Assembly (NCBI RefSeq): GCF_034092415.1
Contig: NZ_CP139304.1
Coordinates: 790,001 to 854,000 of the forward strand
Direction: 5' to 3'
Origin: Prochlorococcus sp. MIT 1341
GTDB lineage: Bacteria; Cyanobacteriota; Cyanobacteriia; PCC-6307; Cyanobiaceae
Length of the DNA: 64,000 nt
Under the pieces are notes generated by a model, which saw only the letters and a list, made by a program, of their open reading frames with translations, was not told the DNA's origin and made no database searches. Within the stretch, counting starts at the first letter, position 1. Each line of letters starts with the position of its first letter. Of this stretch, positions 39,737-57,551 are shown piece after piece. Position numbers and translations under genes: made by a program.

Positions 39737-41932
39737 TTAAACGTAGAAGACGTTCCCAATTTTATGCCAATTGCCCTTCACTAAAAGTGCATCAGCAAAA
39801 TCTTCTTCACAGCTAATCATTAATGGACCACATGTCTGGGGGTCAACTATCAGCTCCTTTATAGCCTTATGCATAGAACTTTCTGGAGTGATTTTACCTA
39901 AAACCAAGCTAACTAATCCTGACTGATCAATTCGCGGGGAAAGTAATGACCAAAAAGAGCGGTTAGCAGGAGCTAAAGAACTACAATAGCCTGCCTGAAG
40001 AAGATCAAGTGCACCAGGTAGAGAAGGTATTTTCTCAGCATTAATATGCACTCTAATGGATGAATTATCCCCTGACAGTCTTAATTTCCTAGACGTTATA
40101 TCTAGCATCTCACCTAAATGCCCTAACAGTCCAAATCCCGTGACATCAGTGCAAGCATGAACTGGGTTTGGTGTTAAATATTGTTCTTGAAAAGATCTCA
40201 ACTCCATAAACAAATGATATTGACTAAATGAAAGCTGTTTCGAAGCAAAATCAAGGTGGCTTGGAGCTGCTTTACCAAACATCTCTGCTGCAAAAAGGAC
40301 TCCTGTACCTAATGGCCTGCTTATTAGCAATGCATCTCCATGTTGAATCAATCCTTTTTTTAATTTCGCCATTCCAGATGTTAATTTCCCATTAACACTA
40401 AGAGCCACCTCTAAGCCTAAACTTATAATTTTTGGAGGTATACTTCGTACCTCATAAGTATGTCCTCCAATTAATTTAGCTCCCTGGGGTTTAAGAGCTG
40501 ACTGAATGCCTTGAAGAGTCTGTGAAAGTAATTCCTGCTGAACTTCCTTTGAGGCTGAAGGCAATCCAATCAAGGCCTGTGCAGACACGACTTCTGCACC
40601 ACTCGCCCATAAATCTGAACTTGCATGCAAAGCTGTAATTCTTCCATTTAGCCAACTATCAGAAACCAAAGCGGGAAATCCATCGACACTCTGAAAAAGT
40701 TCACCTCCTTGAGAATCTGGATCTATCTCAACTGCATCCTCAGGATCACTTCCCAAGCTAGAAAGGCCCGCCTGATGCAAAGCAGCTTTTAAAGGACTTG
40801 ATGCAAGTTTTGAAGCACAACCTCTACATTCCATAATCTCAAAACTCATTGAAGAATCAAAAGTCTTTCTCAACCGACCATCAAAAAGAGACATAAAGTG
40901 AAGATCTATTGTTTTTTTTAGCCACCACAAAAATCGACTCGGTCCGACAACAAACCCTCCCCACATAGCTATCGCAGAAGAACTATTAAGGCCCTTTTGA
41001 AAACCAATCAATTTCAAGGCATCTTTTTGAGGCTCCCATTCTTTTAATTGACGCCCCCTCAACAAAAGCTTGAGATTAATCCCAAGAGGCTTCGCAGATC
41101 TAACTGCCCAAACCCCTGAGGGGGGCCTAGGAGAAGATCTAATTACAGCACAATCTCCTACTGCAAACACACTGGACTCAGTTATCGACTGAAGAGTTTT
41201 AGAAGTAAAAACCCTTCCCAAAGGGTCAACAGAAAGGCCACTCAACGCAAGCCAGCCTGGAGACTTGCTTCCTGTGCACAACAAAGCCGAACTTTCTAGT
41301 GGCTGATTAGAAGAGACAAGCTCTATTGATGAATCTTTAAGGACTTTTTGAAAAGTATTGGAGAGGCTCGAAGGATATGCACTTAGGTAAAGCTTGCGAG
41401 AGGGCCAGCGGCGTCTCAAAGCCAACACAACCTCAACCCCAGCCAAACCAGCTCCGACAACAGTAAACCCTGTCCGCGTATCAGCAGACACATAACGATC
41501 CTGTTCCCTCAACCAATCCAATGCATTTTCCAAAGGCTTTATAGGTACGACCTCAAAAGGTCCAGACTTCAATTCAGCCTCCTCAGGTCTCTTTATTTCA
41601 GCGCCAACATCAAGGCTAAGAATATTAAATTCTTTTGGAGGCCTATCAGCTAATAGAACTTTTTTCCTGACAAGGTCCAATCCAATGATTTCTGCAATGA
41701 CTAAAGCGACGCCACTTTTTCGCGCTAAGAACCTGAGATCTATCTCAAGCTGTTTTTTCGAATAATGACCAGAGATCAAGCCAGGGATCATTCCAGAATA
41801 AAGAGTCGTACTTCCCCTATTGATGAGAGTGATCTCAGCGAGAGGACGCAACTTGGGATTCATAGCCCATTGCCTTAACAACAAGACATGGCTATGTCCC
41901 CCACCAGCTAAAACAATCTTTTCATTCCTCAT
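39737..41932 (-). CDS. selD: FAD oxidoreductase - selenide water dikinase fusion
   Basis: 731 residues in two domains. Residues ~1-360 form a pyridine-nucleotide disulfide oxidoreductase-like (NDH-2-like) flavoprotein: LAGGGHSHVLLLRQW near 6, TGFTVVGAGLAGVEVVLALRRRW near 157, and SVFAVGDCAVI near 250. Residues ~366-731 are SelD: catalytic Cys-372 and Lys-375 in GCASK, SVDGFPALVSDSWLNGRITALHASSDLWASGA, and TDVTGFGLLGHLGEM. SelD makes selenophosphate. This fusion is found in a number of cyanobacteria. The flavin domain may supply reduced selenium or respond to redox state (inference). Divergent from the MFS gene. Confidence 0.93.
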   Translation of the reverse strand: MRNEKIVLAGGGHSHVLLLRQWAMNPKLRPLAEITLINRGSTTLYSGMIPGLISGHYSKKQLEIDLRFLARKSGVALVIAEIIGLDLVRKKVLLADRPPKEFNILSLDVGAEIKRPEEAELKSGPFEVVPIKPLENALDWLREQDRYVSADTRTGFTVVGAGLAGVEVVLALRRRWPSRKLYLSAYPSSLSNTFQKVLKDSSIELVSSNQPLESSALLCTGSKSPGWLALSGLSVDPLGRVFTSKTLQSITESSVFAVGDCAVIRSSPRPPSGVWAVRSAKPLGINLKLLLRGRQLKEWEPQKDALKLIGFQKGLNSSSAIAMWGGFVVGPSRFLWWLKKTIDLHFMSLFDGRLRKTFDSSMSFEIMECRGCASKLASSPLKAALHQAGLSSLGSDPEDAVEIDPDSQGGELFQSVDGFPALVSDSWLNGRITALHASSDLWASGAEVVSAQALIGLPSASKEVQQELLSQTLQGIQSALKPQGAKLIGGHTYEVRSIPPKIISLGLEVALSVNGKLTSGMAKLKKGLIQHGDALLISRPLGTGVLFAAEMFGKAAPSHLDFASKQLSFSQYHLFMELRSFQEQYLTPNPVHACTDVTGFGLLGHLGEMLDITSRKLRLSGDNSSIRVHINAEKIPSLPGALDLLQAGYCSSLAPANRSFWSLLSPRIDQSGLVSLVLGKITPESSMHKAIKELIVDPQTCGPLMISCEEDFADALLVKGNWHKIGNVFYV

Positions 41933-42080: not shown

Positions 42081-43400
42081 ATGAGGAATAATTCCTTAAT
42101 GCCATTAACAAAAACAAAAGCAAACAAGACCTTTTTTTACCTTTGGTTAGCGCAGTTAATATCTAATCTTGGGACTCAAACAACCCTTTATGGAATAGGT
42201 CTATGGCTTTTTTCAAACACCCAACAATTAACTGACTTCGCCTTAGTGGCTTTTGCTGTCCAATTAGCAAGAATAATTGTTTTACCTCTAATAGGAAACC
42301 AAATTTCTGCCTGGCCTAGAAGACAGGTAATGCTCATCTCGAACTGCATTGGAGCTCTATGTACTCTTGGGTTTGCAATGGTGCTTCTTCAAAGTGAAGA
42401 CATCCCTCTTTTGGCACCTCTTCTTCTTCTTCAAGGGCTTGCTGCAATGGCAGAAGCCACATTAATCCTGAGTTTCTCAAGTCTTATTCCTGCTCTAATA
42501 ATCAATAAGCAGTCTCTAATCAAAGCTAACGGCCTTTTCGCAAGCACAGATAGTGTTGTACTTGCAATAGCGCCATTCCTTGGAAGCTGGCTAGCCGGAA
42601 CAATTGGCTTAGAAGGGGTTCTCAGCCTGGATGCTTGCAGTTTTATCCTCGCTTTTATATGCGTTCTTGCCGCACCATGGTCCACTCAACTAAATAATCC
42701 ATCAGGCTTATCAAAACCCTGGAGAGGTCTTCATCTAATTAATCATTGGGAAACAATCAAGGAATTGTGGAGGGCCAGTCCCCTCAGCCAAATTGCTCTG
42801 ACCATTAGTACCTGCGTAGCTTTCTCCTATGCCGCAACCGAAATACTTTTCCCAGCCTGGGTTGCTGTGACCTATGGCCCAAAAAGAATGGCTCTAGTCA
42901 TTCTTGCAGCCATTCTGGGATACCTCCTAGGCCTTCTTGCCTGGCAGACCCAAATAGGAAACTACTGGAAAGGAATATGGCAAAAAATGATTTACATCCA
43001 AGCCTTAATCCTTATGGGGGCAGGATTACAGATTTTTGAGTCAACAACTCTCATCTGGTTTGCAGGTGTTTTCATCTTCAGCGGTGGCATACCTATAGTT
43101 ATGTCTTCAATCCAGCAAATATGGAGTCATATAGCTCTCCCAAAAGACCTCCCACGTTTTTTTGCCATTAGATACGCATTTGAATGGTCAGCAAGATTAA
43201 TTGCTTTCATTACTGTCTCGATAGGGGTAGATCAATTAATTCAACCTGTCCTACTTTCGGCTAATTTGCCTCCCTGGATAAAATTATCTTTAGGCACAGG
43301 AGAGGGAAGAGCTATCGCAGTAGCGCTTGGGGCAATGGGATGGGTACTATTTCTATCCGGAATCAGCCAAAAAAAGAACTTGCGTTCAACTTTTAGGTAA
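42081..43400 (+). CDS. MFS transporter at head of PKS cluster
   Basis: 439 residues from ATG 42081 (a TTG at 42075 and an ATG at 42102 are alternatives). About 12 membrane helices; the first loop pair shows LAQLISNLGTQTTLYGIGLWLF and ISAWPRRQVMLISN, the MFS-3/enterobactin-exporter-like pattern. Ends 15 bp before the GT28-like gene. Most likely exports or flips the cluster product or an intermediate; drug-efflux-like substrates cannot be ruled out. Confidence 0.85.
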   Translation: MRNNSLMPLTKTKANKTFFYLWLAQLISNLGTQTTLYGIGLWLFSNTQQLTDFALVAFAVQLARIIVLPLIGNQISAWPRRQVMLISNCIGALCTLGFAMVLLQSEDIPLLAPLLLLQGLAAMAEATLILSFSSLIPALIINKQSLIKANGLFASTDSVVLAIAPFLGSWLAGTIGLEGVLSLDACSFILAFICVLAAPWSTQLNNPSGLSKPWRGLHLINHWETIKELWRASPLSQIALTISTCVAFSYAATEILFPAWVAVTYGPKRMALVILAAILGYLLGLLAWQTQIGNYWKGIWQKMIYIQALILMGAGLQIFESTTLIWFAGVFIFSGGIPIVMSSIQQIWSHIALPKDLPRFFAIRYAFEWSARLIAFITVSIGVDQLIQPVLLSANLPPWIKLSLGTGEGRAIAVALGAMGWVLFLSGISQKKNLRSTFR

Positions 43401-43415
43401 ATCATTCAATCATCT

Positions 43416-44537
43416 ATGCGAGTTCTAATTCTTACTTCAAGTGGAGGTACTGCACATGACGCGGCAGCCTATTCAATAAAAAATTGGTTATTGAAGTGGG
43501 ACCCTGATGGCTCAGCATCTGTGGAGCATTTACTTGAAAAAGCAAGCCTCGTTATGAGAGCAAGCGTAAATCTCTACAACTGGATTCAAAAACACTGGCC
43601 ATGGCTTCATAAAATTTATTGGCGATTGGTGGAATTCGAAGATCTCGTAAAACCTTCCACCGTTTTGTTTGGCAGAAGCTATTTCATACGCTTACTAAAA
43701 CATTTTCGCCCAGAAGTCATTATTTCAACCCATCCACATATAAATCGAGGTCACTTTGATCTCGCAAAGAGAATTCTTGGAGAGTCATTGAGATGTATAA
43801 CATGTTGCACTGAACTGGATGGCGGCTTCGGTTTCAGTAGGAACTGGGTATCCCAAAGAACCGACAGCTTCTGGGCATTGACACAAGAGGTCAAAAGCGA
43901 AGTGATACATCGAGGCATCTCGCCCAATCGAGTAGAAGTATTAGGTCCATTATTTGACCCTGCTTTTGAGTCAGTATTAGAACAATCAACTAATAAATCT
44001 GCCAAGGAAAACCCTCTACCCCTAATCGTTCTCGGGGCCGGAGCAAATGGATCTAACAACCACTTGCATTTACTAAATGCACTTCTTCCTCTTTCTGGTC
44101 GAATTCGCATAGTTGCATTATGTGGGAAACGAAAAAGTTCCAAAAAAAGAATTGATGCTTGGCATTCTGTTCACCCAGAGATTGCAGTTGAAGCTGTTGA
44201 CTTTCAGAGTCCAGAACAGATGGCAATTCTCTACAAAAAAGCTTGGGTCATGGTCGCTAGGCCAGGCGCTAGAACTGCCACTGAAGCTATAGCCTCAGGA
44301 TGTGTACTGATCTTCAACGGGTTTGGAAGCACCATGCCTCAGGAGTTACTTGCAAGGTATTACTTCTCGTCTAGAGGTATAGACATTTCCATCAATAAAC
44401 CTGAAGATCTAATGGGAATACTTAGTCAATGGCTCGAAGACCCCAAACAGCATAGGCTTATTGAAGAAACCTACAACTGCAACCAACTAAAAGGAAACCT
44501 TGATGGCATTAAAAAGTTGATACTGGGGATGGCTTGA
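43416..44537 (+). CDS. MGDG-synthase/MurG-like glycosyltransferase (GT28)
   Basis: 373 residues. The N-terminal half has the MGDG-synthase pattern (VLILTSSGGTAHDAAAYSIKNWL, then FRPEVIISTHPHINRG near 103). The C-terminal half holds the UDP-sugar site VLGAGANGSNNHL near 207 and ARPGARTATEAIASGCVLIFNGFGSTMPQE near 285. This family moves a hexose from a UDP-sugar to a lipid hydroxyl at the membrane face. The TGA stop overlaps the PKS start by one base (TGATG), so it is translated together with the PKS. Its acceptor is probably the PKS-derived alcohol or a lipid carrying it (inference). Confidence 0.85.
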   Translation: MRVLILTSSGGTAHDAAAYSIKNWLLKWDPDGSASVEHLLEKASLVMRASVNLYNWIQKHWPWLHKIYWRLVEFEDLVKPSTVLFGRSYFIRLLKHFRPEVIISTHPHINRGHFDLAKRILGESLRCITCCTELDGGFGFSRNWVSQRTDSFWALTQEVKSEVIHRGISPNRVEVLGPLFDPAFESVLEQSTNKSAKENPLPLIVLGAGANGSNNHLHLLNALLPLSGRIRIVALCGKRKSSKKRIDAWHSVHPEIAVEAVDFQSPEQMAILYKKAWVMVARPGARTATEAIASGCVLIFNGFGSTMPQELLARYYFSSRGIDISINKPEDLMGILSQWLEDPKQHRLIEETYNCNQLKGNLDGIKKLILGMA

Positions 44538-47500
44538 TGCCTTTGCAAGATCCCATCGCAATAATTGGCATTGGATGCAACCTTCCTGGTGGGATCCAAT
44601 CACCAGATCAATTCTGGGAAGTCCTTCGTGATGGGAAGGATGCAATTAGACAAATCCCTAATGAAAGATGGGATCTTGACTTTCACTTCAACCCAGACCC
44701 CAAAAAACCTCTTACCCAGCATGTGCGAAAGGGTGGTTTCATTGAGGATATCGATCTGTTTGACCCAGGTTTTTTTGGAATCACACCAAGGGAAGCCATA
44801 TGCATGGACCCTCAGCAACGCCTTTTGCTCGAAGTGTCCTGGCGTTCTATTGAGGATGCTGGTGTCCCAATCGACAAAATTAGAGGGCAATCTGTTGGAG
44901 TATTTGTTGGCATCTCAAGTGCTGACTACAGCTCCCTACTTTGGGCTTCCAGTGAGGACTATCTCACTCCTGACAATGAACCCTTTATTCTTCCAGGTAA
45001 CACAGGATGTATTGCTGCCAACAGGCTTTCCTATTTTTTAGATCTAAAAGGACCAAGCTTCACAGTTGATACTGCTTGTTCCTCTTCTTTAGTTGCAGTG
45101 CATCTAGCCTGTGAGAGTCTCCAAAAAGGCGAATCAGAACTAGCAATTGCTGGCGGAGTCCAAGCACTTCTCCATCCAGGAATACAAATGAGTTTTTGTA
45201 AGGCAGGCTTACTCTCCCCTGAGGGCCGATGCAAAAGCTTTGATTCTGAAGCAAATGGATATGTTCGCTCTGAAGGAGCAGGAGTAGTGCTCTTAAAACC
45301 TCTAAAAACTGCTTTAAGAGATGGTGATCAGATTCATGCTTTGATTGAAGGTACCGCAATCAACTCAGATGGACGCAGTCAGGGCCTAGCCGCACCAAGC
45401 CAACGTTCTCAATCTAATTGTGTTCGCAAGGCCTACGAAAGTGCGGGTTTAGCACCAAATCAAACCCAATATGTTGAAGCCCATGGGACGGGGACACGTC
45501 AAGGCGACCCTATTGAGCTAAGAGCTTTAGGTAGCGTTCTAAGGGAAGGTAGACCTAATAACCAACCATGTCGAATAGGCTCAGTCAAAACAAACCTTGG
45601 TCATGGCGAAACTGCTGCAGGAATAACAGGTCTTATCAAAACCGTACTTTGTTTAAAAGAAAGGAAAATACCCGCGAGCTTACATTTTCACAAACCAAAC
45701 CCCTCTATAGATTTTGAAAAACTTGGTTTAAAAGTTCAAACTAAGCTTGAATCATTTCCGAATCCTAAAAGCAAATTAATCGCAGGAGTGAGCTCCTTTG
45801 GGTTTGGGGGAACAAATGCTCATGCGGTTTTAAGTGAATCCCCTAAAACAAAAAATTTACTAATAAATAACCACGATGAAAAGGTAGAGCCCCCAATATA
45901 TTTCCTCTGCATTTCTGCAAGAACAACTAAAGCGCTTGAGATTCTGAGAAAAGAATATGTTTTTCTCTTAAAGAATAACCCTTTATTAAGTATCAATGAC
46001 GTCGCGGCAAGCACACATCTTGGGAGAAGTATGTTCCCTCATAGATTGATCGCAATAGGAACAAATCGAGATGAGTTAGTTTCTCAACTTGAACTTCAAG
46101 AAGAGCCAGCCTGGAATGGAGAAACGTCACTTGTAAGCTCTAGTACAAGCAAAAGCAATGAACCTCTTGAAAAAATAACTCTTGGCTTATCTGGTGAAGA
46201 AGGGAAAAAGAAGCTCAAAAAATTAGCCCTGGAAATTGGAAAAGGTGAAAAATTTGACTGGAAAATCTTTCACCATCCATTCCCTCACAAACGCGTGAAT
46301 GTTCCTGGTCATCCATTCATAAAACAACGTTATTGGTGGAATAAACCAGAAAATGAAAAGAGCAAATCAAGTCTTTGGCTGGATCATATAGGTAAAACAA
46401 ATAAAAAGGCATCAAGTGTAAATAAGGAACGAATCTTACAATTTGAACAACTTGAACTCCCTGGCTCATCTGAACATTTCCATGCAGAATTAAATCCTAT
46501 CGAGATCTTAGATTTAGGCGACCATTTAGTTCGTGATTGGGTGGTTTTCCCTGCTGCAGGATATATTGCATTGGCACTTGATCTAAAACGAGAAAGGAAT
46601 CAAGAGTCTTTTCTTTCTGATTTTGTTTTAGATACTCCCCTTAGAATTCAAGACAAATCCAGCACCTTACAGGCTGTATTAGAAGGAGGTAAAATGAGCT
46701 TTTACAGTAAAGATTTAGGGAAGAAAACATGGCTAAAACATGGCGAACTAATTCTTAAAGATAGAGGGAATCAAAGATTTAATAATATTGTTCTGCAAGA
46801 CAAGGTGGCTAATTCTTTTTCGGACATTGAATCTATTTCCACAAAATCTTTCTATGAAAGCTTGTCCACCATTGGTCTTAACTATGGAAAACTTTATCAG
46901 CCAATCAAATCGCTACGCTCCAGGCCTTATCAAGCATGGGTAGAAATAGAAAGGCCAAATAGTGCTCCAGACAGATGCCTAATAGATGGCTGTTTTCAAG
47001 CAGTTGCAGCTTGTTTAGATGTTAGAGAAACAAATGGTCAATTATTTCTTCCAGTTGGTCTGAAAAATCTTGAGTTCACAGAATGGCCTTTACCAGACAA
47101 GTTCAATTGCAATATCTTATTGCATCCACCCCAGGACCACAATTCAACAATAATAGCTGATTTAGAATTAGAGAAAGAAGGTAAATGCATCGGCAAACTA
47201 GTTGGTCTAAAGCTAAGAAGACTAACCCGATCAGTGCTAGACCTTCTATTCCCAAAGAAAGAGTCCTCAAAAATCAAGCCAAGTTTATTACACTCTAAAT
47301 GGTCACCAATAAGCATTCAAAAAGACAAAAAGCCAACATTCAACAATAATCAGATAATTGTAATTGGACCAGATAAGTCTCGAATTGAAAATTTAAATTG
47401 TTGGGCCAATGTTGAAGACCTATCCCTCAATAGAATACCTCTTAGAGCTGAATTATCACAGGTTCATACACCCCTTATCTTATGGCCAAGAATCACAAAA

Positions 47501-50500
47501 GAAAATCCAGAGAATTTGCTGAATATACTCTTAAAAGTTTTTAAATCCCTATCAAATGATCACCAAGAGCCTATTTTACTTGTTTTAGAAGGTGATTCCC
47601 CAACAACAAGTTCCCTAAAAGCTTTCCAACGCTCCGTGATGCTTGAACGCCCAGACTGGAAATTGACAACCTTGCATCTACCCTCTGAATTAGATCAACA
47701 TCCAAAACCTGAAGACTGGGGAGAAATCTTCTTAGCAAGCGAAAAATTTTCCGAAATCTCTTACTTAAATGGCGTCCTAAATAGCCCACATTTAGAAGTA
47801 GTAGAAAATGAGAGGTTCCAAATAAGAACTGATGGGACTGGGCGTTTAGAAGGTCTACATCGCAAGGCAATGCCTCCCACAGAACTATTGCCAGGTGAAG
47901 TTGAAATAGCTGTTGAAGCGACTGGCCTTAACTTTCGAGATGTACTCAATTCCCTAGGATTACTAAAGGATCATGCAGCTTCGCTTGGAATAGACGACCA
48001 AACCCGTTTGCCATTTGGAGGGGAAGCTGTTGGGAAGATAGTGGATATTGGCCCTAATTTATCCAGCGAACTTATTGGGCAAAGAGTTGTTGCAGCCCTA
48101 ACAATTGGCAGCCTCGCGAGTCATGTCATTTCAAGAGAAGAGCTTTGCATACCTATGCCCCCAGGCATGAGTGCAGAAGAAGGAGCAAGCTTTTCAACTG
48201 CTTTTCTGACAGCTGCATATGGCCTAGAAAAGCTTGCAAAATTAGAACCCAACCAAACCGTTCTTATACATTCCGCGGCGGGAGGGGTCGGTCAAGCAGC
48301 AATGCAAATAGCAAAACGTTCCGGAGCAAAAATTTTTGCCACCGCCTCTGCTGGCAAGCAAAACCTAATCAAGGAACAAGGCGTAGAAGGAGTATTTGAT
48401 TCAAGAACTCTAGATTTTGCTGATCAGATTTTGGATTGCACTAATGGTGTTGGCGTAGATGTAGTACTTAATAGTCTTAAAGGAGAATGGGTTGATGCCA
48501 GTTTCAAGTGCCTAAAAAAGGGAGGAAAGTTCTTAGAACTTGGCAAGATTGATATCTGGAGCGATGCACAAGCAAAGGAGAAAAGACCAGACGCCAAATA
48601 TCTTCCTTTTGATTTACTGGAAGTTGCTACCGCTGAACCATTGAAGATAAGAAGTCTTCTTCTCAGAATTAGCAAAGAAATATCTACTGGTTCGTTGCAA
48701 AATATACCATCTAAAGCTTGGCATATAAATGAATTCAAAGATGCTTTCAAGCACATGGCTCAAGCAAGGCATATAGGTAAGGTTGTAATCAAACAACCGA
48801 TACAACCTGAACAAATTTCCATCAAAGAAAATGCAACCTATTTAATAACTGGTGCTTTAGGCGGCATTGGGTTGAAACTTCTTAAATGGGTTACATCCCA
48901 GGGAGCAAAATCATTAATTTTAGTTGGTCGTTCATTTAAAGACCCTAAAGAAGATGCTCAGAGAGTGTTAAAAGAGCTGAGGGGTAAAGGGGTTAAATAT
49001 ACTTGCATCGCTTATGACCTTTCAGAAACAAAAAATTCTACAACTTCTCAAGAACTTAAAAGGACGATCAATCTCCTCCCTAATACTAAACCTTTACGTG
49101 GCATTTTTCATACCGCAGGCCTACTCCGCGATGGTCTTCTATCAACGATTGATGAGGATTGTATTAAATCAACTATGGATCCAAAACTTCAAGGATGGAA
49201 ATTATTTGAAAGCCTAATAAAGAAAGAGTCTGATTTAGATTTTATTATTGGGTTCTCTTCTATAGCAGCTTTACTTGGTTCCCCAGGGCAAGCAGCATAT
49301 GCAGCCGCAAATGGTGCCATAGAAGGATATTGCAAAAGAGAGTCTTCATCTCCAATCAGACTTGCAATCCAATGGGGACCTTGGTCAAACACAGGGATGG
49401 CAAAGGGGTTAGAAAGTCGTTTTGAAAAAATAGGTATGAAAATGATTGCCCCAGAAGATGCTTTTGAGTCACTAAATAGACTTCTAAAAAGAGGAGAAGG
49501 AGGGGTGATCTCTGTCGCAGATAATGACTGGCAAATGCTTGCATCTCAAGCATTACCAAGGCAAAAAGATTGGTTTAATGACTTGCTTGAAAAGATCGGG
49601 CCATCACCTTCTGAGCGCCTTTGGAAGAAGTTGAAAGCACTGCCAAAATCTCAGCATCAATTGATTCTAATGCAGGAGTTACGAGAAAGATTGGCAAGAG
49701 TAATGGCAGCAGAATCTGATTCGGAAGATTTACTAGAGGCCTCTTCTATTGATTCAAGTGAATCTCTCTTTAACCTTGGGCTTGATTCATTAATGGCAGT
49801 TGAATATGCAGCTGTAGTTCAAACAGAACTTGGGATTCGACTTGATCTTGAAGCTCTTGCAGATGACCCCACCCTTGATGCACTTGCCGAACTTGGGCTC
49901 AAACAATTAACACCTAAACAGGGTCAATCCCATAATGAATCTTTAAATCTTGAGCAGGAGGCAAAGCTAGATAAAGACTGGTCCTGCCCTTCTCTAAATC
50001 CAAGTCTTTGTCCCGGCAACTCAATATTCCTAACAGGGGCATCTGGCTTCCTGGGTGCATACTTATTAGCAGGACAACTTAAACGTTGGGAGGATCTCAA
50101 TGTACGCTGTCTGGTAAGAGCAAAGACCGTTGAAATTGCTCTTGAGAGAATAAAGAAAAACTTATATTTTTATGGTCTCTGGGAACCAAGTTGGGAGAGG
50201 AGAATAAAACCAATACTTGGTGATTTATCACTCTCAAGATTTGGGCTTGAAGAAGAACATTTCAAAAAATTATCAAATAAAATTGGAGGAATCCTTCATA
50301 ACGGTGCGCAACTTAGTCAAATGGCACCTTATGCGCAGTTGACAGCTGCCAATGTAGGAGGAACCCGAGAAATATTAAACCTAGCGACTATCTCTAACCC
50401 TATTCGCTTAGAGCATGTTTCGAGTGTTTCTGTTTTCGAAGGAGCTGCCTATAGAAATCGTGAAATAGATGAGTGTGACGACCTTAACTGCTGCGAGGGC

Positions 50501-51121
50501 ATTCATATTGGTTATTCACAAACTAAATGGGTTAGCGAGAGGCTTGTAACTCAGGCAGGTCGACTTGGATTACCAATAAGCATTTACCGTCCACCATTAA
50601 TAGGGGGACATTCCATCACCGGTCACTGGCATGAAGGGGATCTTCTGCAAAGACTTTTACAAGGTTGCTTAGCATTAGGACAAGCTCCTCAGCTTGCTTG
50701 GGAATTGGATCTTGTCCCTGTCGATTACGTTGCTGACTCCATAAGTGCTCTTGCTTGGAATAAAGAAACTGCCGGGAATTGTTTTCACCTACAACATCCA
50801 CGTCCTTTAATGCTCAATGATCTTTTGACAAAGCTCATATCGGACGGCGCACCTTTACAGCAAGTGCCTATGAAGGAATGGCTTCAGGCAATTTCAGAGG
50901 ATACGAACAATCCGCTTAATCCTCTTAAGGCTTTCTTCCAACAACGCTGGGGGCCAGAACAACTCACATATCCGGAGTTAAATGCATTGGGCGTAAGAGC
51001 TCGCCCAAGTTGCAAACTAACCATCTCCGCCTTAGAGAAGAAAAATATCCACTGCCCAGATTTTGAAGACCTTATTGATACTTGGGCTGCCTCACTTCTG
51101 AAAAGTTCAGTAGCAGCTTGA
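44537..51121 (+). CDS. type I polyketide synthase KS-DH-ER-KR-ACP-TR, no AT
   Basis: 2194 residues. Ketosynthase ~5-435 with the intact triad Cys-181 (DTACSSS), His-316 (EAHGTGT) and His-356 (NLGHGE). A KS-to-AT linker (ISARTTKALEILRKEY...GRSMFPHRL) spans ~455-505 and a post-AT linker (FDWKIFHHPFPHKRVNVPGHPFIKQRYWW) ~573-601. The ~300-residue acyltransferase that should lie between them is absent. Dehydratase ~645-900 has His-663 and Asp-817 (DGCFQ). A structural KR half ~905-1085 follows. Enoylreductase ~1095-1430 has HSAAGGVGQAA at 1245-1255. Ketoreductase ~1433-1680 has TGALGGIG at 1438-1445 and Tyr-1588/Asn-1592. ACP carries Ser-1751 in LGLDSL. C-terminal thioester reductase ~1828-2194 has TGASGFLG near 1833 and Tyr-1993/Lys-1997. 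It should build a fully reduced chain and release it as aldehyde or alcohol. The missing AT must be supplied in trans. ATG 44537 is preferred over a TTG three bases earlier. Confidence 0.95.
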   Translation: MPLQDPIAIIGIGCNLPGGIQSPDQFWEVLRDGKDAIRQIPNERWDLDFHFNPDPKKPLTQHVRKGGFIEDIDLFDPGFFGITPREAICMDPQQRLLLEVSWRSIEDAGVPIDKIRGQSVGVFVGISSADYSSLLWASSEDYLTPDNEPFILPGNTGCIAANRLSYFLDLKGPSFTVDTACSSSLVAVHLACESLQKGESELAIAGGVQALLHPGIQMSFCKAGLLSPEGRCKSFDSEANGYVRSEGAGVVLLKPLKTALRDGDQIHALIEGTAINSDGRSQGLAAPSQRSQSNCVRKAYESAGLAPNQTQYVEAHGTGTRQGDPIELRALGSVLREGRPNNQPCRIGSVKTNLGHGETAAGITGLIKTVLCLKERKIPASLHFHKPNPSIDFEKLGLKVQTKLESFPNPKSKLIAGVSSFGFGGTNAHAVLSESPKTKNLLINNHDEKVEPPIYFLCISARTTKALEILRKEYVFLLKNNPLLSINDVAASTHLGRSMFPHRLIAIGTNRDELVSQLELQEEPAWNGETSLVSSSTSKSNEPLEKITLGLSGEEGKKKLKKLALEIGKGEKFDWKIFHHPFPHKRVNVPGHPFIKQRYWWNKPENEKSKSSLWLDHIGKTNKKASSVNKERILQFEQLELPGSSEHFHAELNPIEILDLGDHLVRDWVVFPAAGYIALALDLKRERNQESFLSDFVLDTPLRIQDKSSTLQAVLEGGKMSFYSKDLGKKTWLKHGELILKDRGNQRFNNIVLQDKVANSFSDIESISTKSFYESLSTIGLNYGKLYQPIKSLRSRPYQAWVEIERPNSAPDRCLIDGCFQAVAACLDVRETNGQLFLPVGLKNLEFTEWPLPDKFNCNILLHPPQDHNSTIIADLELEKEGKCIGKLVGLKLRRLTRSVLDLLFPKKESSKIKPSLLHSKWSPISIQKDKKPTFNNNQIIVIGPDKSRIENLNCWANVEDLSLNRIPLRAELSQVHTPLILWPRITKENPENLLNILLKVFKSLSNDHQEPILLVLEGDSPTTSSLKAFQRSVMLERPDWKLTTLHLPSELDQHPKPEDWGEIFLASEKFSEISYLNGVLNSPHLEVVENERFQIRTDGTGRLEGLHRKAMPPTELLPGEVEIAVEATGLNFRDVLNSLGLLKDHAASLGIDDQTRLPFGGEAVGKIVDIGPNLSSELIGQRVVAALTIGSLASHVISREELCIPMPPGMSAEEGASFSTAFLTAAYGLEKLAKLEPNQTVLIHSAAGGVGQAAMQIAKRSGAKIFATASAGKQNLIKEQGVEGVFDSRTLDFADQILDCTNGVGVDVVLNSLKGEWVDASFKCLKKGGKFLELGKIDIWSDAQAKEKRPDAKYLPFDLLEVATAEPLKIRSLLLRISKEISTGSLQNIPSKAWHINEFKDAFKHMAQARHIGKVVIKQPIQPEQISIKENATYLITGALGGIGLKLLKWVTSQGAKSLILVGRSFKDPKEDAQRVLKELRGKGVKYTCIAYDLSETKNSTTSQELKRTINLLPNTKPLRGIFHTAGLLRDGLLSTIDEDCIKSTMDPKLQGWKLFESLIKKESDLDFIIGFSSIAALLGSPGQAAYAAANGAIEGYCKRESSSPIRLAIQWGPWSNTGMAKGLESRFEKIGMKMIAPEDAFESLNRLLKRGEGGVISVADNDWQMLASQALPRQKDWFNDLLEKIGPSPSERLWKKLKALPKSQHQLILMQELRERLARVMAAESDSEDLLEASSIDSSESLFNLGLDSLMAVEYAAVVQTELGIRLDLEALADDPTLDALAELGLKQLTPKQGQSHNESLNLEQEAKLDKDWSCPSLNPSLCPGNSIFLTGASGFLGAYLLAGQLKRWEDLNVRCLVRAKTVEIALERIKKNLYFYGLWEPSWERRIKPILGDLSLSRFGLEEEHFKKLSNKIGGILHNGAQLSQMAPYAQLTAANVGGTREILNLATISNPIRLEHVSSVSVFEGAAYRNREIDECDDLNCCEGIHIGYSQTKWVSERLVTQAGRLGLPISIYRPPLIGGHSITGHWHEGDLLQRLLQGCLALGQAPQLAWELDLVPVDYVADSISALAWNKETAGNCFHLQHPRPLMLNDLLTKLISDGAPLQQVPMKEWLQAISEDTNNPLNPLKAFFQQRWGPEQLTYPELNALGVRARPSCKLTISALEKKNIHCPDFEDLIDTWAASLLKSSVAA

Positions 51122-52299
51122 CACTCAGGGATCTTCTACCACTACTTTTTGCTGTGGTTATTGCCACTCAAGTCATTTTAGTGGCATTTTTCAAATTCAA
51201 AATCAAACAACTGCAAAGAGGGAAAACTTTTCGCGCGGGAGAACCTTATCAACTATGGCCAGAAGTTGAAGTTGTTTTGTGCTTACGAGGAGCAGATAAG
51301 ACACTTCCTGGAATGCTCAATTCTCTTTCTAAGCAAAACTATCCCGGGCTATGGCGCCTAAAAATTGTAGTGGACTCTGCATCAGACCATGCATGGGCAA
51401 TCGTTCAAGAAATGATTGATTCTGAAGGTAAAAACAACCAAAAAACTTCTTCATGGGCTGAAGCAATTGTTGAAGTTCTCGAAGAAAAGGAAACAAAAGG
51501 TTCCCTCAAATGTGCATCTATTAGGCAAGCTTTTAAAGGACTTCACCCTAATTCAAAGGTGGTTGCATTAGTCGATTCAGATGCAGTTGTACCGTCAGAT
51601 TGGCTAAAAACATTAGTTTATGAATGCTGCCAGGAAAATATTGGAGCTGTATCTGGAAACAGATGGTACGAGCCGACTAGAAATACACTTTCTGCGTGCA
51701 CTAGAAAAGTTTGGAATGCAGGAGCCCTGGTAATGATGACAATTTTTAAAATCCCCTGGGGAGGCTCACTTGCTGTAAAAAGAGAATTAATCAATTCTGA
51801 TCTTTGGGTAAACCTTCTTGAAAGCTCTCTCTGTGAAGACACATGCCTACACAAACCACTCAAAGAACTAAACTTAGAATATAGGTTTATCCCCGAACTT
51901 TTAATTATTGACCGTAGTTATGACATAACTATGCCAGGATTAGCGAAATGGCTTTCTCGTCAGGTTCTCACAGTACGTCTTCATCACCCTGCATGGCCAC
52001 TTATCATGATTCATGGCCTTGGAACAACATTAGTACTTGTTTTAGGGTTATTTTCCGGGACATGGTTTTCATTGATAGTATATGAATTATCTTGCCTTTT
52101 ATTGTTAGGCTGGATTGAAGTAATAGCCAGAAATAAAACGCCTAAATCTACAAGAAATTTTGCTTTTTCACTTATAGCGGGACAATTAATCAATGGCTGG
52201 TCAACTTTAATGGCTCTTGTTGCAAAAGAAGTAGAGTGGCGTGGAATTAATTACAAGATAACCCTAAACCCTAAAGGGGTTGAGAGATTGCAGGACTAA
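51118..52299 (+). CDS. membrane glycosyltransferase, GT2/GT21-like
   Basis: 393 residues from a TTG that overlaps the PKS stop (TTGA). A TTG at 51082 would overlap by 40 bases and is less likely. An N-terminal membrane helix (LLPLLFAVVIATQVILVAF) is followed by the GT-A domain: the DxD motif in LVDSDAVVPSDW (Asp-153/155), EDTCLHKPL near 244, and WLSRQVLTVRLHHP near 277. Two or three C-terminal membrane helices follow. This layout resembles ceramide glucosyltransferase and HpnI-type enzymes that glycosylate lipids at the membrane. Coupling to the PKS suggests that it adds a sugar to the PKS product. Its 3' end overlaps the SRPBCC gene on the other strand by 29 bases. Confidence 0.85.
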   Translation: MTLRDLLPLLFAVVIATQVILVAFFKFKIKQLQRGKTFRAGEPYQLWPEVEVVLCLRGADKTLPGMLNSLSKQNYPGLWRLKIVVDSASDHAWAIVQEMIDSEGKNNQKTSSWAEAIVEVLEEKETKGSLKCASIRQAFKGLHPNSKVVALVDSDAVVPSDWLKTLVYECCQENIGAVSGNRWYEPTRNTLSACTRKVWNAGALVMMTIFKIPWGGSLAVKRELINSDLWVNLLESSLCEDTCLHKPLKELNLEYRFIPELLIIDRSYDITMPGLAKWLSRQVLTVRLHHPAWPLIMIHGLGTTLVLVLGLFSGTWFSLIVYELSCLLLLGWIEVIARNKTPKSTRNFAFSLIAGQLINGWSTLMALVAKEVEWRGINYKITLNPKGVERLQD

Positions 52300-52837
52300 C
52301 CATTAACTCATATAGAATTTTCATAGACTGATTCAAGTTTGTTTCGCTAAGCTCACGAAAAACAGGTTTAAAAACTTCTGGAATCTCTGGGTCAATATCA
52401 ATACTATGGCTCACCATTGTCCCTCCATCAATAGGCTTCAATTTCCATTTACCTCTCAGTGATCGAATAAGATCCCCCTTCAATAATTTATATTCAATCA
52501 TTTTTTTTGGGGTTTCTTTAACATGAATCAAAGCTGAAATCTCCAAACCAAAAGTGTAGGGTGCTTGATAAGTCTGAGATAATCTAAGGGAGTGTCCATT
52601 CCGAAAAATAATTTTCACCTTTTTGATATCTGGCATTTGTATTGCTGTGCTTTCATAACCTGTCAAAACCTCCCATGCTCTATTAAGTTCAACAGGAACG
52701 GTGATTGTGGAGGTTGTCACTCCTGAGAGTCTTGTTAACTCAGGCTGGTTACTTTGACTTTGTGCAAAAACTAAGCCGATCGGAGCGGACACACCTACTA
52801 TCAGACCTAATAAAACAGCTCTACTTGATTTCCCCAT
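52271..52837 (-). CDS. secreted SRPBCC-fold (polyketide cyclase/START-like) protein
   Basis: 188 residues from ATG 52837 (MGKSSRAVLLGLIVG), which gives a clean signal peptide ending near VFAQS. An upstream ATG at 52873 would add 12 residues and overlap the divergent gene. The mature part fits the SRPBCC / polyketide_cyc pattern: STITVPVELNRAWEVLTGYESTAIQMPDIKKVKIIFRN, then beta strands and a long C-terminal helix ending ESNLNQSM-like. Members bind hydrophobic ligands in a deep pocket. Its position within the cluster suggests binding or carrying the lipid product across the periplasm (inference). Opposite strand, so separately transcribed. Confidence 0.75.
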   Translation of the reverse strand: MGKSSRAVLLGLIVGVSAPIGLVFAQSQSNQPELTRLSGVTTSTITVPVELNRAWEVLTGYESTAIQMPDIKKVKIIFRNGHSLRLSQTYQAPYTFGLEISALIHVKETPKKMIEYKLLKGDLIRSLRGKWKLKPIDGGTMVSHSIDIDPEIPEVFKPVFRELSETNLNQSMKILYELMVSPAISQPL

Positions 52838-52843
52838 TCGACA

Positions 52844-54046
52844 TTGCTTGTGCAGGAATCTAGTACTAACCATGATGGAAGGAGAGTTGAATTAAAGCGC
52901 ACAAGGGAAAACTGTGCGTCACTTCCTTGCTCTAGAACTTATTTCGTTAGTGGGTTTGACCCAAGAGGTGCAAACCACTATCTAGCTCTATTTCAAAAGG
53001 AGCTACAAGCTAGAGGGGCTAGTACTGGTAAAAGAATAACCAATGGGCTAATAACTCGCTGGCCGATAAAGAAAAAAACAGGAAACGAGAAAACCCAAGA
53101 AGTTGAAACGCTCCACCAATCAGAACTTTGTTTCCTCCACTGGGACGATATAGCAAGAGCAAACTGGCCTAAACAACCCTTAGAAATCCTTAAGCAGTGC
53201 ATGTCATATGCGTCTTTTTACCTCTTCAGAGGATGGGTTTTTCGAATAGCCAAATTGTGCCCTGGTGTAGCTTTATGTGGAGCCTACCCATTACTTTTCT
53301 TACTTATTGCATTGTGTTTTGCCACAATTACAGCAACCCTCTCAATAGAACTATTTGAAATATTTTCCATTCCAGCAGGGAAATACTTAATAAGTTTAAC
53401 TTTGTGGTTTTCAACCCTTTTCGCAGCATGGAAACTGGCAGAAGCACTTGGTGTGATTTGGCTCACAAGATCAATCCTATTCACCCACCGCCTGGGCCAA
53501 GCCAAGGAAAAAGATTTACGCCAAAGGGTATGCGACCTAGCAGTTCTATTAATCAACCTCGAAGAAAAAGAACCTGCAGAACGTATTATTATTATTGGAC
53601 ATAGTAGCGGTAGTTTTGTTGCTGCAATGCTCGCCGCTGAATTAAAAAGACAAGACAATTCGGCTAACTTACTTTCTCGAATAGAATTACTAACACTTGG
53701 GCAAAACTTGACAAATTTATCTATATATCCAGAGGCAAAATCTTTCCGAGATGACCTCAAATTTTTAGCAGAACAGCCAAGGTTTCCATGGAGGGATGTC
53801 ACATCCCAAGAAGACTTACTATGTTTCGCAGGGGTGAACCCTTTTATAACCTGCGGGATTGCCATACCAAAAGGCAGCCTATATCCAAAAATGGAAATTA
53901 TCTCACTAAGTCTTCCAAGAAAAGGTCGAAAGCAAAAAAGAATTTTGCTTGATCAGTTTGACATACATTTTGATTACCTTCGTAATCATTGCCCTGACGT
54001 TGATTTACCTGGATTACTTACTAAGCCTTTATCAAGGGAATACTAA
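52844..54046 (+). CDS. membrane-associated alpha/beta hydrolase
   Basis: 400 residues if TTG 52844 is used; GTG 52850 is equally possible and no ribosome binding site decides. The conserved part begins YFVSGFDPRGANHYLALFQKEL. Two adjacent hydrophobic helices occur near 150-215 (YPLLFLLIALCFATITATL and LISLTLWFSTLFAAWKLAEAL). The nucleophile elbow GHSSGSFVAAML is near 255, and DQFDIHFDYL near the C terminus may supply the catalytic His. It looks like a membrane-bound lipase or acyltransferase-like hydrolase. Likely role: acyl transfer or ester cleavage on the lipid product (inference). The stop overlaps the P450 start (TAATG). Confidence 0.7.
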   Translation: MLVQESSTNHDGRRVELKRTRENCASLPCSRTYFVSGFDPRGANHYLALFQKELQARGASTGKRITNGLITRWPIKKKTGNEKTQEVETLHQSELCFLHWDDIARANWPKQPLEILKQCMSYASFYLFRGWVFRIAKLCPGVALCGAYPLLFLLIALCFATITATLSIELFEIFSIPAGKYLISLTLWFSTLFAAWKLAEALGVIWLTRSILFTHRLGQAKEKDLRQRVCDLAVLLINLEEKEPAERIIIIGHSSGSFVAAMLAAELKRQDNSANLLSRIELLTLGQNLTNLSIYPEAKSFRDDLKFLAEQPRFPWRDVTSQEDLLCFAGVNPFITCGIAIPKGSLYPKMEIISLSLPRKGRKQKRILLDQFDIHFDYLRNHCPDVDLPGLLTKPLSREY

Positions 54047-55464
54047 TGACTGAGGTCACTAAACAACAAAGGAATGAACCCCCCTGGCCGAAACCATTGC
54101 CATATACTGCAAATATTTTGCATAGACTTGCGCGTGGCTGGAAGACATGGCTTGGACTACTAAATGAATGGGATTTTCGTATACCCATTGGTGAAATCAA
54201 TATACTTGGACTCCCTGTATTTCTTATCAACGACCCTCCACTTGTCCGAAGAATTCTTGTTGATGAAGTGGAAAATTTCCCTAAGCATCCATACACACTA
54301 TGGATTCTAGAACCATTGATCGGAAGAGCCATCTTTTCAGTAAATGGTGAAGAGTGGCAATGGCAAAGACGTCTTATAGATCAAGCATTCCAAGTCGCAA
54401 AGTTAAACCGTGTCTTCCCATCAATGGCTGGTGCAACAGAAGACTTTATAAAGCGTCTCCATGAGCATAAATCTCAACAACCAATAGATATTGATGCCGA
54501 AATGACATTAGTGACTGCTGATGTAATTATGCGTACAATTCTTAGCAGGCCTTTGAGTGAAGGGGAGTCCAAGAAGATTTTTCTTGCTTTTTCCAGATAT
54601 CAAAGAAAAGCTGGCAGAGCCTTAGTACTAAGGTTTTTAAACCTTCCAAAAAGCTTGATTCAAATTAACTTAAAGAATGATGCAAAAATAATCAGAGACT
54701 GGATACACATAGCGATTAAAGAAAGATTGAAGAAACATGCTGAAGGAGATGAAACTTCTTCCACCTCAATGGATCTTCTAGATTGTTTAATAATGGCAAA
54801 TGATCCGGAAACTAAAAGAAAATTCAGCGAGAAGCAGCTTGTAGATCAAATATGCTTTCTTTTTCTAGCAGGTCATGAAACATCAGCGAGCTCTTTAGGA
54901 GTCGCAACATGGTTACTCGCCCTATACCAGGATATTCAACAAAAGTTACGAGAAGAAGTCCTTTTAGTTTCAGCTGGTAAGCCCGTTCAAGAACAATTAG
55001 AACAAGTCGAAATAAGAAAATTAAATTATTGCTCTGCGATATTTAATGAAACACTTAGATTATATCCACCAGTTAGTTTCTTTATACGGGAAAGAATAAA
55101 GACAGATACTAACTTCTTTGTTTCTGGAGAGAAGAGCAAGTGTCCTCTAGGGGCACTTCTTACACTCTCACCTTGGGTCATTCAACGTCATGAAAATCAT
55201 TGGGAAGATCCTCAGGTTTTTAAGCCAGAGCGTTTCTTAAAAACGAAAGAATCCAGGTGGGTCAAAGAAGCTTTCCTCCCTTTTGGTATAGGGCCAAGAA
55301 AATGTCCTGGGGCTGCTTTTGCACAACAAGAAGCTGTATTAGTACTCGCCGAACTAGTTAGAAACTTTAAAGTTTCACCTGCCAAGGGACACATTCCAAA
55401 TCTCACAGGCCGCCTAACTTTACGTTCATCTAATGGGATAAAACTATTACTTCAAAAAGTCTAA
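54046..55464 (+). CDS. cytochrome P450
   Basis: 472 residues, full length. I-helix oxygen-activation motif AGHETSAS begins at residue 275; the K-helix ExxR is Glu-335 to Arg-338 in NETLRLYPP; the heme loop is FGIGPRKCPGAAFA with Cys-420. General architecture resembles the CYP110/CYP4-like group of cyanobacterial P450s that hydroxylate fatty acids and alkanes. Coupled translationally to the upstream hydrolase (TAATG). Probably hydroxylates the aliphatic PKS product. A redox partner is not in the window; host ferredoxin could serve. Confidence 0.95.
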   Translation: MTEVTKQQRNEPPWPKPLPYTANILHRLARGWKTWLGLLNEWDFRIPIGEINILGLPVFLINDPPLVRRILVDEVENFPKHPYTLWILEPLIGRAIFSVNGEEWQWQRRLIDQAFQVAKLNRVFPSMAGATEDFIKRLHEHKSQQPIDIDAEMTLVTADVIMRTILSRPLSEGESKKIFLAFSRYQRKAGRALVLRFLNLPKSLIQINLKNDAKIIRDWIHIAIKERLKKHAEGDETSSTSMDLLDCLIMANDPETKRKFSEKQLVDQICFLFLAGHETSASSLGVATWLLALYQDIQQKLREEVLLVSAGKPVQEQLEQVEIRKLNYCSAIFNETLRLYPPVSFFIRERIKTDTNFFVSGEKSKCPLGALLTLSPWVIQRHENHWEDPQVFKPERFLKTKESRWVKEAFLPFGIGPRKCPGAAFAQQEAVLVLAELVRNFKVSPAKGHIPNLTGRLTLRSSNGIKLLLQKV

Positions 55465-55472
55465 CTAAACAA

Positions 55473-57551
55473 TTAAAAGACGATACTAACCTTAGTCCCA
55501 AGTCTTAAATCATCAGATCTAATCATTTGTCCAATGTCTAGCATCCCCGCTGCATTACTAATATAAAAATCTACATATGTTGTATCTGGCCTAGCAAGCC
55601 ATCGCAAAGCAAGTGTCATGTTAGTCGCTTCTCGGTGAGAACCAACCAAGTTAATTTCAGGAATCAACTGAAAACTATTACCTAGTTGCATGTTTGCACT
55701 AAGGCCTACACCCCAAGGGTCACTGACTCCACTGATTACAGCCTTGGGGTTTACATTCACTGCTAGCCAAGAATTTACCTCGTAAGTATTTATAGATTCT
55801 GCAAAAATATATCCTTGATAACTCTTTGCGTCATTATTACGCCCCAAACTTATACGTCCAGAGGTCCAAATTGGGGCCCCTCTCAAAGGACTTAATGCCA
55901 CTGCCTTTCCACCAACTCGCCAATGCAAACCATCGTCAGTGGTGTAATTACGTTCCAAACTTGACGAAGGCTCTCCGCCAACACTATCAACCTGACTAAA
56001 TAGACCAGCCTTGTATAGATCTAATTGAAAGATATTAGAAATCGAATAAGATAAAGATCCAAAAATATTTCCTCTGTTATCCAGGTTCCCCCATAATTGA
56101 GTAGTGCCATCGGGCGGAACTAGTGCAGTATTAACAGTCAAGCCTCCTGAAGCAAGTGAATGTTGACGTTTAGTCAGAGGCAACTGAGGAGTATCAGGTG
56201 CACCACTGTTATATACAAACTTAGCCGAATAACCTAACTGGTTGGAAGAAGGGAGAGCAAGTAAAGATGTTGCAGGTGTGGCCCCCCAGCCATTAGTTAA
56301 AGCGCCCTCAAGTGCAATCCGAGGGTTTAAATTCCAAGTTAATCCACCTGTGAAAATAGGAACTCTTTCAAAATTCAAGTTTTTATCAAAGCTATTATTA
56401 CCTGGCCCTAGAGACAATAAGGTAGAAGTAAATAGCTCTATCTCTGGAATAGGCTTCCAAAACAAACCTCCTGAAACCCAATAATTATTTCCATAGAAAT
56501 CACCAGCACCTCCCTGGCCTGAGCCCTGTTTCTCAGGGAGAAAACTTACGCCTGGAGAAAAAGTCAGTTGGGAAGTTGAGGAGGTATTCCAACTGATAGG
56601 CAAGGCTATAGAGCCAATGACATTTCTTGTAAAAACTCTTTGACCTGAATCATTAAAGATATTTGGAGAAGCATCATTATTACCCTTACATAAGGCTGAA
56701 TCACATCCACCACTTCCAACATTCCAACCTTCGATTGATGCAGCTAATGCAAGATTCCAATATTTCCCAGGAGCGTCCTGATATAAGCCATAAGGATCGC
56801 TAGCCAACCTAAATTTAAACTCAGCACCAAAGCTCTCCCAAAAATTTCCTGGCTGAGAACTTAGTGATTCTATTTTCGCGAAAAGTGGGTCATCAGCTTG
56901 TGATGCAAATCCAGAGAGTTGAAGCCTATCAGTGATCCCAAAGTCAAACTGTATTGAATAATTCTGATTACCGGTTCCACCAGACTCACCAGGCATAAAA
57001 GGCGATATTTGATAAGCATTTAATCTGATGTCAGATTCAAATACTTGATTTGCAGTAGGAACAGCATTCCCAATTCTTAATGGCAATTGATAATCTTCCG
57101 GACGTGGCTCTAGCTGATTAAAAACAGCTTGCGCTTCTCCATAATTATTAGGGATTTTTAGTTCTCCAAAGTACTCTTTAATCTCCTTTTCCTTGTCAGG
57201 GAGTTCTTGATCTTCGATAACATCCCAAACCACAGGGGCGTTACCTGGATATTTATCCTCAGGAATATTTTCCCAAATTACAGGTTGACTGGAACTATTA
57301 TTTTTGCTGGCCGGGAAAGTCTCCCAGGTTAAATTAGATTTCTTCTTAAAAGTTTGAATAGGTCCAACTTGAGGTGAAATTTGTATTTCTTTAGGACTAG
57401 ATTCTTGGAAGGACTTAAGAGTTCCTGAAGTCTCTTGACCTATTTGGAGCCCATCCCAAACTATCTCAGCATGACTAGCGGATATTGGGACTATTTGCAT
57501 AAATAAAGTCCCACTAAGAAATTTTATCATCGAACTAATTCTTAGCATCAA
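55473..57551 (-). CDS. predicted outer-membrane beta-barrel protein
   Basis: 692 residues with an N-terminal signal (MIKFLSGTLFMQIVPISASHA). Residues ~30-130 carry four spaced copies of a short W-motif (VWDGLQ, TWETFP, IWENIP, VWDVIE), then a segment RIGNAVPTANQVFESDIRLNAYQISPFMPGE. The remainder alternates short amphipathic strands and Gly/Ser/Asn turns (QYSIQFDFGITDRLQLSGFAS). It ends in Phe (TKVSIVF), the usual OMP C-terminal signature. Likely a channel or export barrel for surface polysaccharide or lipid given the Wza/Wzz neighbours; 103 bp separates it from the Wzz-like gene upstream. Ligand unknown. Confidence 0.75.
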   Translation of the reverse strand: MMLRISSMIKFLSGTLFMQIVPISASHAEIVWDGLQIGQETSGTLKSFQESSPKEIQISPQVGPIQTFKKKSNLTWETFPASKNNSSSQPVIWENIPEDKYPGNAPVVWDVIEDQELPDKEKEIKEYFGELKIPNNYGEAQAVFNQLEPRPEDYQLPLRIGNAVPTANQVFESDIRLNAYQISPFMPGESGGTGNQNYSIQFDFGITDRLQLSGFASQADDPLFAKIESLSSQPGNFWESFGAEFKFRLASDPYGLYQDAPGKYWNLALAASIEGWNVGSGGCDSALCKGNNDASPNIFNDSGQRVFTRNVIGSIALPISWNTSSTSQLTFSPGVSFLPEKQGSGQGGAGDFYGNNYWVSGGLFWKPIPEIELFTSTLLSLGPGNNSFDKNLNFERVPIFTGGLTWNLNPRIALEGALTNGWGATPATSLLALPSSNQLGYSAKFVYNSGAPDTPQLPLTKRQHSLASGGLTVNTALVPPDGTTQLWGNLDNRGNIFGSLSYSISNIFQLDLYKAGLFSQVDSVGGEPSSSLERNYTTDDGLHWRVGGKAVALSPLRGAPIWTSGRISLGRNNDAKSYQGYIFAESINTYEVNSWLAVNVNPKAVISGVSDPWGVGLSANMQLGNSFQLIPEINLVGSHREATNMTLALRWLARPDTTYVDFYISNAAGMLDIGQMIRSDDLRLGTKVSIVF

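Follow-up and report, generated by a model that had tools for sequence, protein, structure and literature searches.

A polyketide synthase without an acyltransferase in a putative envelope-glycolipid gene cluster of Prochlorococcus MIT1341

The window analysed here is a 64,000-nucleotide stretch, positions 790001-854000 within the single 1,937,096-bp contig of Prochlorococcus MIT1341, and the coordinates below are counted from its first letter. MIT1341xe, an oceanic low-light Prochlorococcus, belongs to the LLVII grade (PMC11559063). The window holds a block of seven genes that includes a type I polyketide synthase (PKS) in which the acyltransferase (AT) domain is absent. A sequence-only reading had named these genes as MFS, GT28, PKS, GT2, SRPBCC, hydrolase and P450 and had placed them in a unicellular picocyanobacterium. 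The host is indeed such an organism, and Pfam and NCBIfam, which were used for all domain and family calls, confirmed the seven assignments at their positions:

42081 (ATG) to 43400, plus strand: MFS_1 transporter (PF07690, E 4.7e-15), whose adjacency to the GT28 gene is kept in relatives.
43416 to 44537, plus strand: GT28/MGDG-synthase-like glycosyltransferase (PF06925 and PF04101).
44537 (ATG) to 51121, plus strand: single-module type I PKS of 2194 aa, with ketosynthase (KS), no AT, dehydratase (DH), enoyl reductase (ER), ketoreductase (KR), acyl carrier protein (ACP) and thioester reductase (TR), in that order, by Pfam.
51118 (TTG) to 52299, plus strand: membrane GT2 glycosyltransferase, GT21/HpnI-like (PF00535 and PF13506; TIGR03472 below cut-off).
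52271 to about 52837, minus strand: SRPBCC (START-like) protein (PF03364) with a signal-peptide-like N terminus.
About 52844 to 54046, plus strand: alpha/beta hydrolase with a GHSSG nucleophile motif and an inserted hydrophobic helical hairpin.
54046 to 55464, plus strand: cytochrome P450 (PF00067, E 4.1e-71) with the haem motif FGIGPRKCPG.

The tight junctions described earlier were all borne out. The MFS and GT28 genes are separated by 15 bp, GT28 and PKS share TGATG, the TTG start of the GT2 gene overlaps the PKS stop in TTGA, and hydrolase and P450 meet in TAATG. Most AT-less orthologues retain a GT28 stop that overlaps an ATG, as either TGATG or TAATG. Three relatives (G052, G109 and G171 in our survey) carry ATGA at the site of TTGA, which supports the TTG start codon. 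Stop-start overlaps of this kind are judged to exceed chance. The proposal of one co-selected operon was upheld in part: a co-selected gene set is supported by content and order that are kept across genera, whereas the SRPBCC gene runs antisense between GT2 and hydrolase and separates two sense blocks, MFS-GT28-PKS-GT2 and hydrolase-P450. Because of this antisense gene, a single simple operon is too strong a reading and was ruled out. Promoter and terminator scans scored under shuffled expectation and were not used.

From a comparison of N termini, the second Met of the SRPBCC protein, at 52837, appears the likelier start over that of the long open reading frame at 52873. At 52837-52873 the divergent SRPBCC and hydrolase genes have starts that overlap or almost touch, which leaves no promoter space between them. 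The gap is wider, about 200-400 bp, in some AT-bearing relatives.

The PKS is the most distinctive member of the block. A Pfam scan found KS, DH, ER, KR, ACP and thioester reductase domains and no PF00698 acyltransferase; the TR matches PF07993 and, in NCBIfam, TIGR01746 above its cut-off. Orthologues in the same cluster of other genera possess a GHSxG-bearing cis-AT about 300 aa long and otherwise share the KS-DH-ER-KR-ACP-TR order and the partner genes, mostly in the same order and orientation. Aligned with these, the MIT1341 enzyme is without the AT core of about 300 residues, while the linkers on either side of it, KS-AT and post-AT (VPGHPFIKQRYWW), are both retained. The same pattern of retained linkers around an absent AT was found in 16 orthologues, 15 of them full-length and one truncated by its contig, which together form the AT-less set. 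Orthology to the AT-bearing enzymes is clear in a tree that did not include trans-AT KSs, and outside the family Cyanobiaceae only the KS region gave good matches. No account of the AT loss was found in the literature.

The MIT1341 PKS has the KS Cys-His-His, DH His, ER nucleotide motif, KR Ser-Tyr, ACP Ser and TR Tyr-x-x-x-Lys, and these core catalytic motifs are conserved across the AT-less set, as seen in a motif table and by single inspection of the columns for the KS second His, the DH His and the ER. The KR-DH-ER and TR domains support the earlier reading of a PKS that is fully reducing and frees its chain by reduction. The enzyme resembles a trans-AT PKS in having a module without an AT domain and departs from that type in that no dedicated stand-alone AT is encoded with it.

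The survey covered 300 genomes drawn evenly from the Cyanobiaceae. At 1e-60, 54 of them had a match to the PKS; 45 of these were cluster-type (E <= 1e-190), among them the AT-less set. In a tree of 2,070 columns from which the AT region was excluded, the AT-less forms make up one side of a branch with support of 100/100, and a single change was sufficient in 200/200 bootstrap trees. The AT-bearing forms branch first under the outgroup used, which makes a single loss the simplest history: the AT would have been lost once, within a clade of 15 genomes. The full gene set (MFS, GT28, PKS, GT2, antisense SRPBCC, hydrolase and P450) is present in AT-less and AT-bearing genomes alike. Orthologues scattered, or present and absent independently of one another, are not what we found; the set stays together across divergent Cyanobiaceae. 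The P450, searched in the same survey at 1e-60, occurs in 37 genomes, and 34 of these also have a cluster-type PKS (Fisher 9e-32, uncorrected for relatedness).

Some rearrangement was seen. MFS and GT28 are swapped in two genomes (G294 and G276), and a variant cluster with two PKS genes occurs in four (G199, G243, G279 and G062). In G279 and G062 the second PKS (L069, L070) is shorter, about 1650 aa, and also without an AT; it matches in the KS and a C-terminal KR-ACP-TR, with a KS that groups apart, in a clade on a long branch. G261 has two AT-bearing copies (L062, L063), with partner genes seen in one of the two regions. Upstream of the block, 39737-41932 on the minus strand encodes an oxidoreductase/SelD-related fusion (TIGR04369 over cut-off) that adjoins it in many relatives. 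Relatives in several genera have the block at the same place, flanked by the UvrD/SelD-fusion genes and Wzz; with this shared position and no GC-content anomaly, recent horizontal import into MIT1341 was ruled out.

A PKS without an AT requires another enzyme for loading. Exactly one PF00698 gene was found per genome in 15/15 AT-less genomes, a set in which some assemblies are incomplete and several are 99-100% complete, and a dedicated trans-AT elsewhere in the genome was thereby ruled out. The sole PF00698 gene of MIT1341 lies about 240 kb from the PKS and passes the FabD cut-off. As the only member of the AT family it is, by elimination, the likely trans-loader of the PKS. There is precedent for FabD in this role in the barnesin pathway (PMC13096860). 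Two PP-binding domains were found in MIT1341, the PKS ACP and one beside a second KS gene; the latter pair is presumed to be AcpP and FabF. One phosphopantetheinyl transferase (PPTase, PF01648) was found.

The ACP is also where the two groups of PKS differ most, relative to the divergence inside each group. Among 190 windows of 70 residues, it had the highest ratio of divergence between AT-less and AT-bearing forms to divergence within groups, at 1.50 (mean 1.22, standard deviation 0.09), which would fit adaptation to a new partner. A second stretch of high between-group divergence, with ratios of 1.38-1.50, covers KS residues about 221-290 (c. 45.2-45.4 kb).

On the basis of the enzyme families, we consider it reasonably probable that the block specifies the synthesis of an envelope glycolipid. 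In this pathway the PKS would be an iterative, fully reducing enzyme whose cis-AT was lost once in the common ancestor of the AT-less marine picocyanobacteria. The single PPTase would activate its ACP, and FabD would load malonate onto that ACP in trans. The KS, probably primed with a fatty acyl chain, would then elongate the chain, the KR-DH-ER domains would reduce it, and the C-terminal thioester reductase would release it, giving an aldehyde or a long-chain alcohol. The P450 may hydroxylate the chain, one or both glycosyltransferases may attach a sugar, the hydrolase may trim or edit intermediates, and the MFS and SRPBCC proteins may carry the lipid outward. The earlier claim of two lipid-type glycosyltransferases alongside a transporter agrees with the family assignments, since both GT28 and GT2/GT21 include lipid glycosyltransferases; the GT28-like protein also has a sub-cut-off match to NF010135 (diglucosyl-diacylglycerol synthase). 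In the hydrolase, S245 and H366 are invariant, and its structure model (pLDDT 87) has TesA as best fold match (Z 12.2, 3.5 A over 172 residues). Other esterases tied with TesA, and so no specific function was assigned.

Several observations weigh against this pathway. Iteration is assumed from the presence of a single module. DH motifs vary, and in the g34 forms Ala stands in place of the conserved Pro. The MFS protein is as similar to drug-efflux families as to lipid exporters. The G221 cluster has its MFS gene moved and is without both hydrolase and P450, so the steps ascribed to these two enzymes are dispensable there. Finally, a more acidic ACP was considered as an adaptation to FabD and rejected; the charge difference is slight and lies outside helices II-III, and so does not account for recognition by FabD.

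Comparison with characterized systems helps to place the PKS. Mycocerosic acid synthase and Pks2 are among the best sequence matches and share the single-module KS-DH-ER-KR-ACP layout, but these mycobacterial-type reducing enzymes own a cis-AT. They are not known to carry a TR domain. Barnesin BrnF (PMC13096860) has no cis-AT, no discrete AT in its cluster and FabD as its loader, as we propose for MIT1341; it differs in belonging to a nonribosomal peptide synthetase-PKS hybrid with thioesterase release, whereas the MIT1341 PKS is one module that is fully reducing and has TR release, and its AT-bearing orthologues survive in the same cluster of other genera. The block is probably covered by CF-20, an orphan PKS family reported in 2014 as widespread in marine and freshwater picocyanobacteria with conserved gene order (PMC4247773), two features that we also observed. 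The main text of that paper does not speak of a missing AT.

Kinship with the heterocyst glycolipid (hgl) pathway, suggested by the sequence-only reading, did not hold. The KS is 33-35% identical to cyanobacterial PfaA/PUFA-type (polyunsaturated fatty acid) KSs, compared with 55-60% to the nearest KSs elsewhere in the class Cyanobacteriia, and it falls in a clade separate from the PfaA type, to which hgl KSs have been assigned (PMC4247773). Because the KS does not belong to the PfaA/HGL type, the parallel is at most one of functional analogy, not homology, and hgl orthology was ruled out by the KS tree. What the two share is a PKS-made chain, reductive release by a thioester reductase, glycosylation and a proposed envelope destination. 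The cluster differs in its KS clade, in having MFS_1 in place of a linked ABC/TolC exporter (hgdBCA), and in a host without heterocytes.

Downstream of the P450 lies a polysaccharide-export unit, linked to the block and not part of its core:

55473 to 57551, minus strand: outer-membrane protein (OMP) of 692 aa, predicted to form two tandem 12-strand beta-barrels.
57655 to 59331, minus strand: Wzz-type polysaccharide co-polymerase (PF02706).
59341 to 60522, minus strand: Wza/OPX polysaccharide export protein (PF02563 and SLBB).

The 692-aa protein begins with a signal peptide and ends in Phe; sequence comparison gave neither a Pfam or NCBIfam hit nor a relative of solved structure. The model of the protein (pLDDT 78) shows 24 main strands, and its halves match separate 12-strand barrels, KdgM (Z 18.4, 1.8 A over 171 residues) and FapF (Z 18.7, 2.7 A over 199), on which the prediction of a tandem-barrel OMP is based. 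Foldseek matches to 22-strand receptors were discarded (TM 0.12-0.19, root-mean-square deviation of about 20 A or more). Coupled OPX/beta-barrel arrangements are known with single 18-strand barrels (PMC9601211). In MIT1341 and relatives the barrel gene is likewise coupled to the OPX gene, in the order Wza-Wzz-OMP, but the model predicts two barrels of 12 strands each. Farther downstream are an EpsG-family protein, a glutamine-hydrolysing amidotransferase and a GT4 enzyme, and a PglK/MsbA/HepA-like ABC gene lies at c. 63.1-64.9 kb among polysaccharide genes.

The OMP occurs with Wza and Wzz in genomes without the PKS (G001, G046 and G050), which assigns it to polysaccharide export and excludes it from the core of the PKS cluster. 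Distant relatives (about 29-41%) are found in small-genome Prochlorococcus without the PKS. These occurrences also bear on a stronger claim, compatible with an envelope glycolipid, in which the lipid would serve the neighbouring exopolysaccharide as anchor or primer and the block and the Wza-Wzz-OMP unit would form one surface-polymer system. The unit adjoins the block in many genomes, and adjacency survives inversion (G018 and G118 compared with MIT1341, G125, G261 and G170). However, it lies about 30 kb away in G157, Wza and Wzz were not found beside the block in MIT1307, and adjacency may stem from one shared island. We regard this arrangement as rather unlikely.

A somewhat lower probability attaches to a product that is a secreted small polyketide, such as a signal or allelochemical, exported by the MFS protein. 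The transporter does show weak similarity to TIGR00900 (below cut-off) and to macrolide-efflux models, and the distribution is patchy across the family. TR release, the GT28 and GT21-like enzymes and an SRPBCC protein with a signal peptide better suit a membrane lipid, gene order is kept over deep divergence, and vertical inheritance with losses has been inferred for CF-20, the probable same family (PMC4247773).

Decay of the PKS into an inactive gene would account for a missing essential domain and for the absence of a dedicated trans-AT gene, but it appears very improbable. Fifteen genomes, at identities as low as about 50%, keep frames of about 2,200 codons that no internal stop interrupts, and decay over the time since an old loss would have broken them; the loss is single and old, and core catalytic motifs are conserved. 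Least probable is that the cluster is an hgl pathway member in a unicellular host, for although the logic of PKS, thioester reductase and glycosyltransferase is the same and hgl-like islands exist in non-heterocytous cyanobacteria (PMC11804610), the KS clade and the exporter both differ and the main text of that study names no Prochlorococcus or Synechococcus.

Returning to the envelope glycolipid, a broader picture can be drawn, though we offer it tentatively and think it rather doubtful as a whole. One clean excision of the AT may have converted a cis-AT iterative PKS in place to dependence on FabD. Its product in marine picocyanobacteria may be an envelope glycolipid of a class not yet described, made alongside a polysaccharide layer that leaves the cell by way of a tandem-barrel OMP, and the two may form a heterocyst-envelope-like structure at which unicellular cells arrived independently.

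The same cluster with and without an AT, one loss apart, provides a natural before/after pair. It makes testable whether a PKS can be handed over to the loader of fatty-acid synthesis, and which changes in the ACP this needs. Cultured carriers, MIT1341 and MIT1307, have been described and can be used for lipid analysis. In a group that ranks among the most abundant phototrophs, the cluster points towards a surface lipid not yet described.

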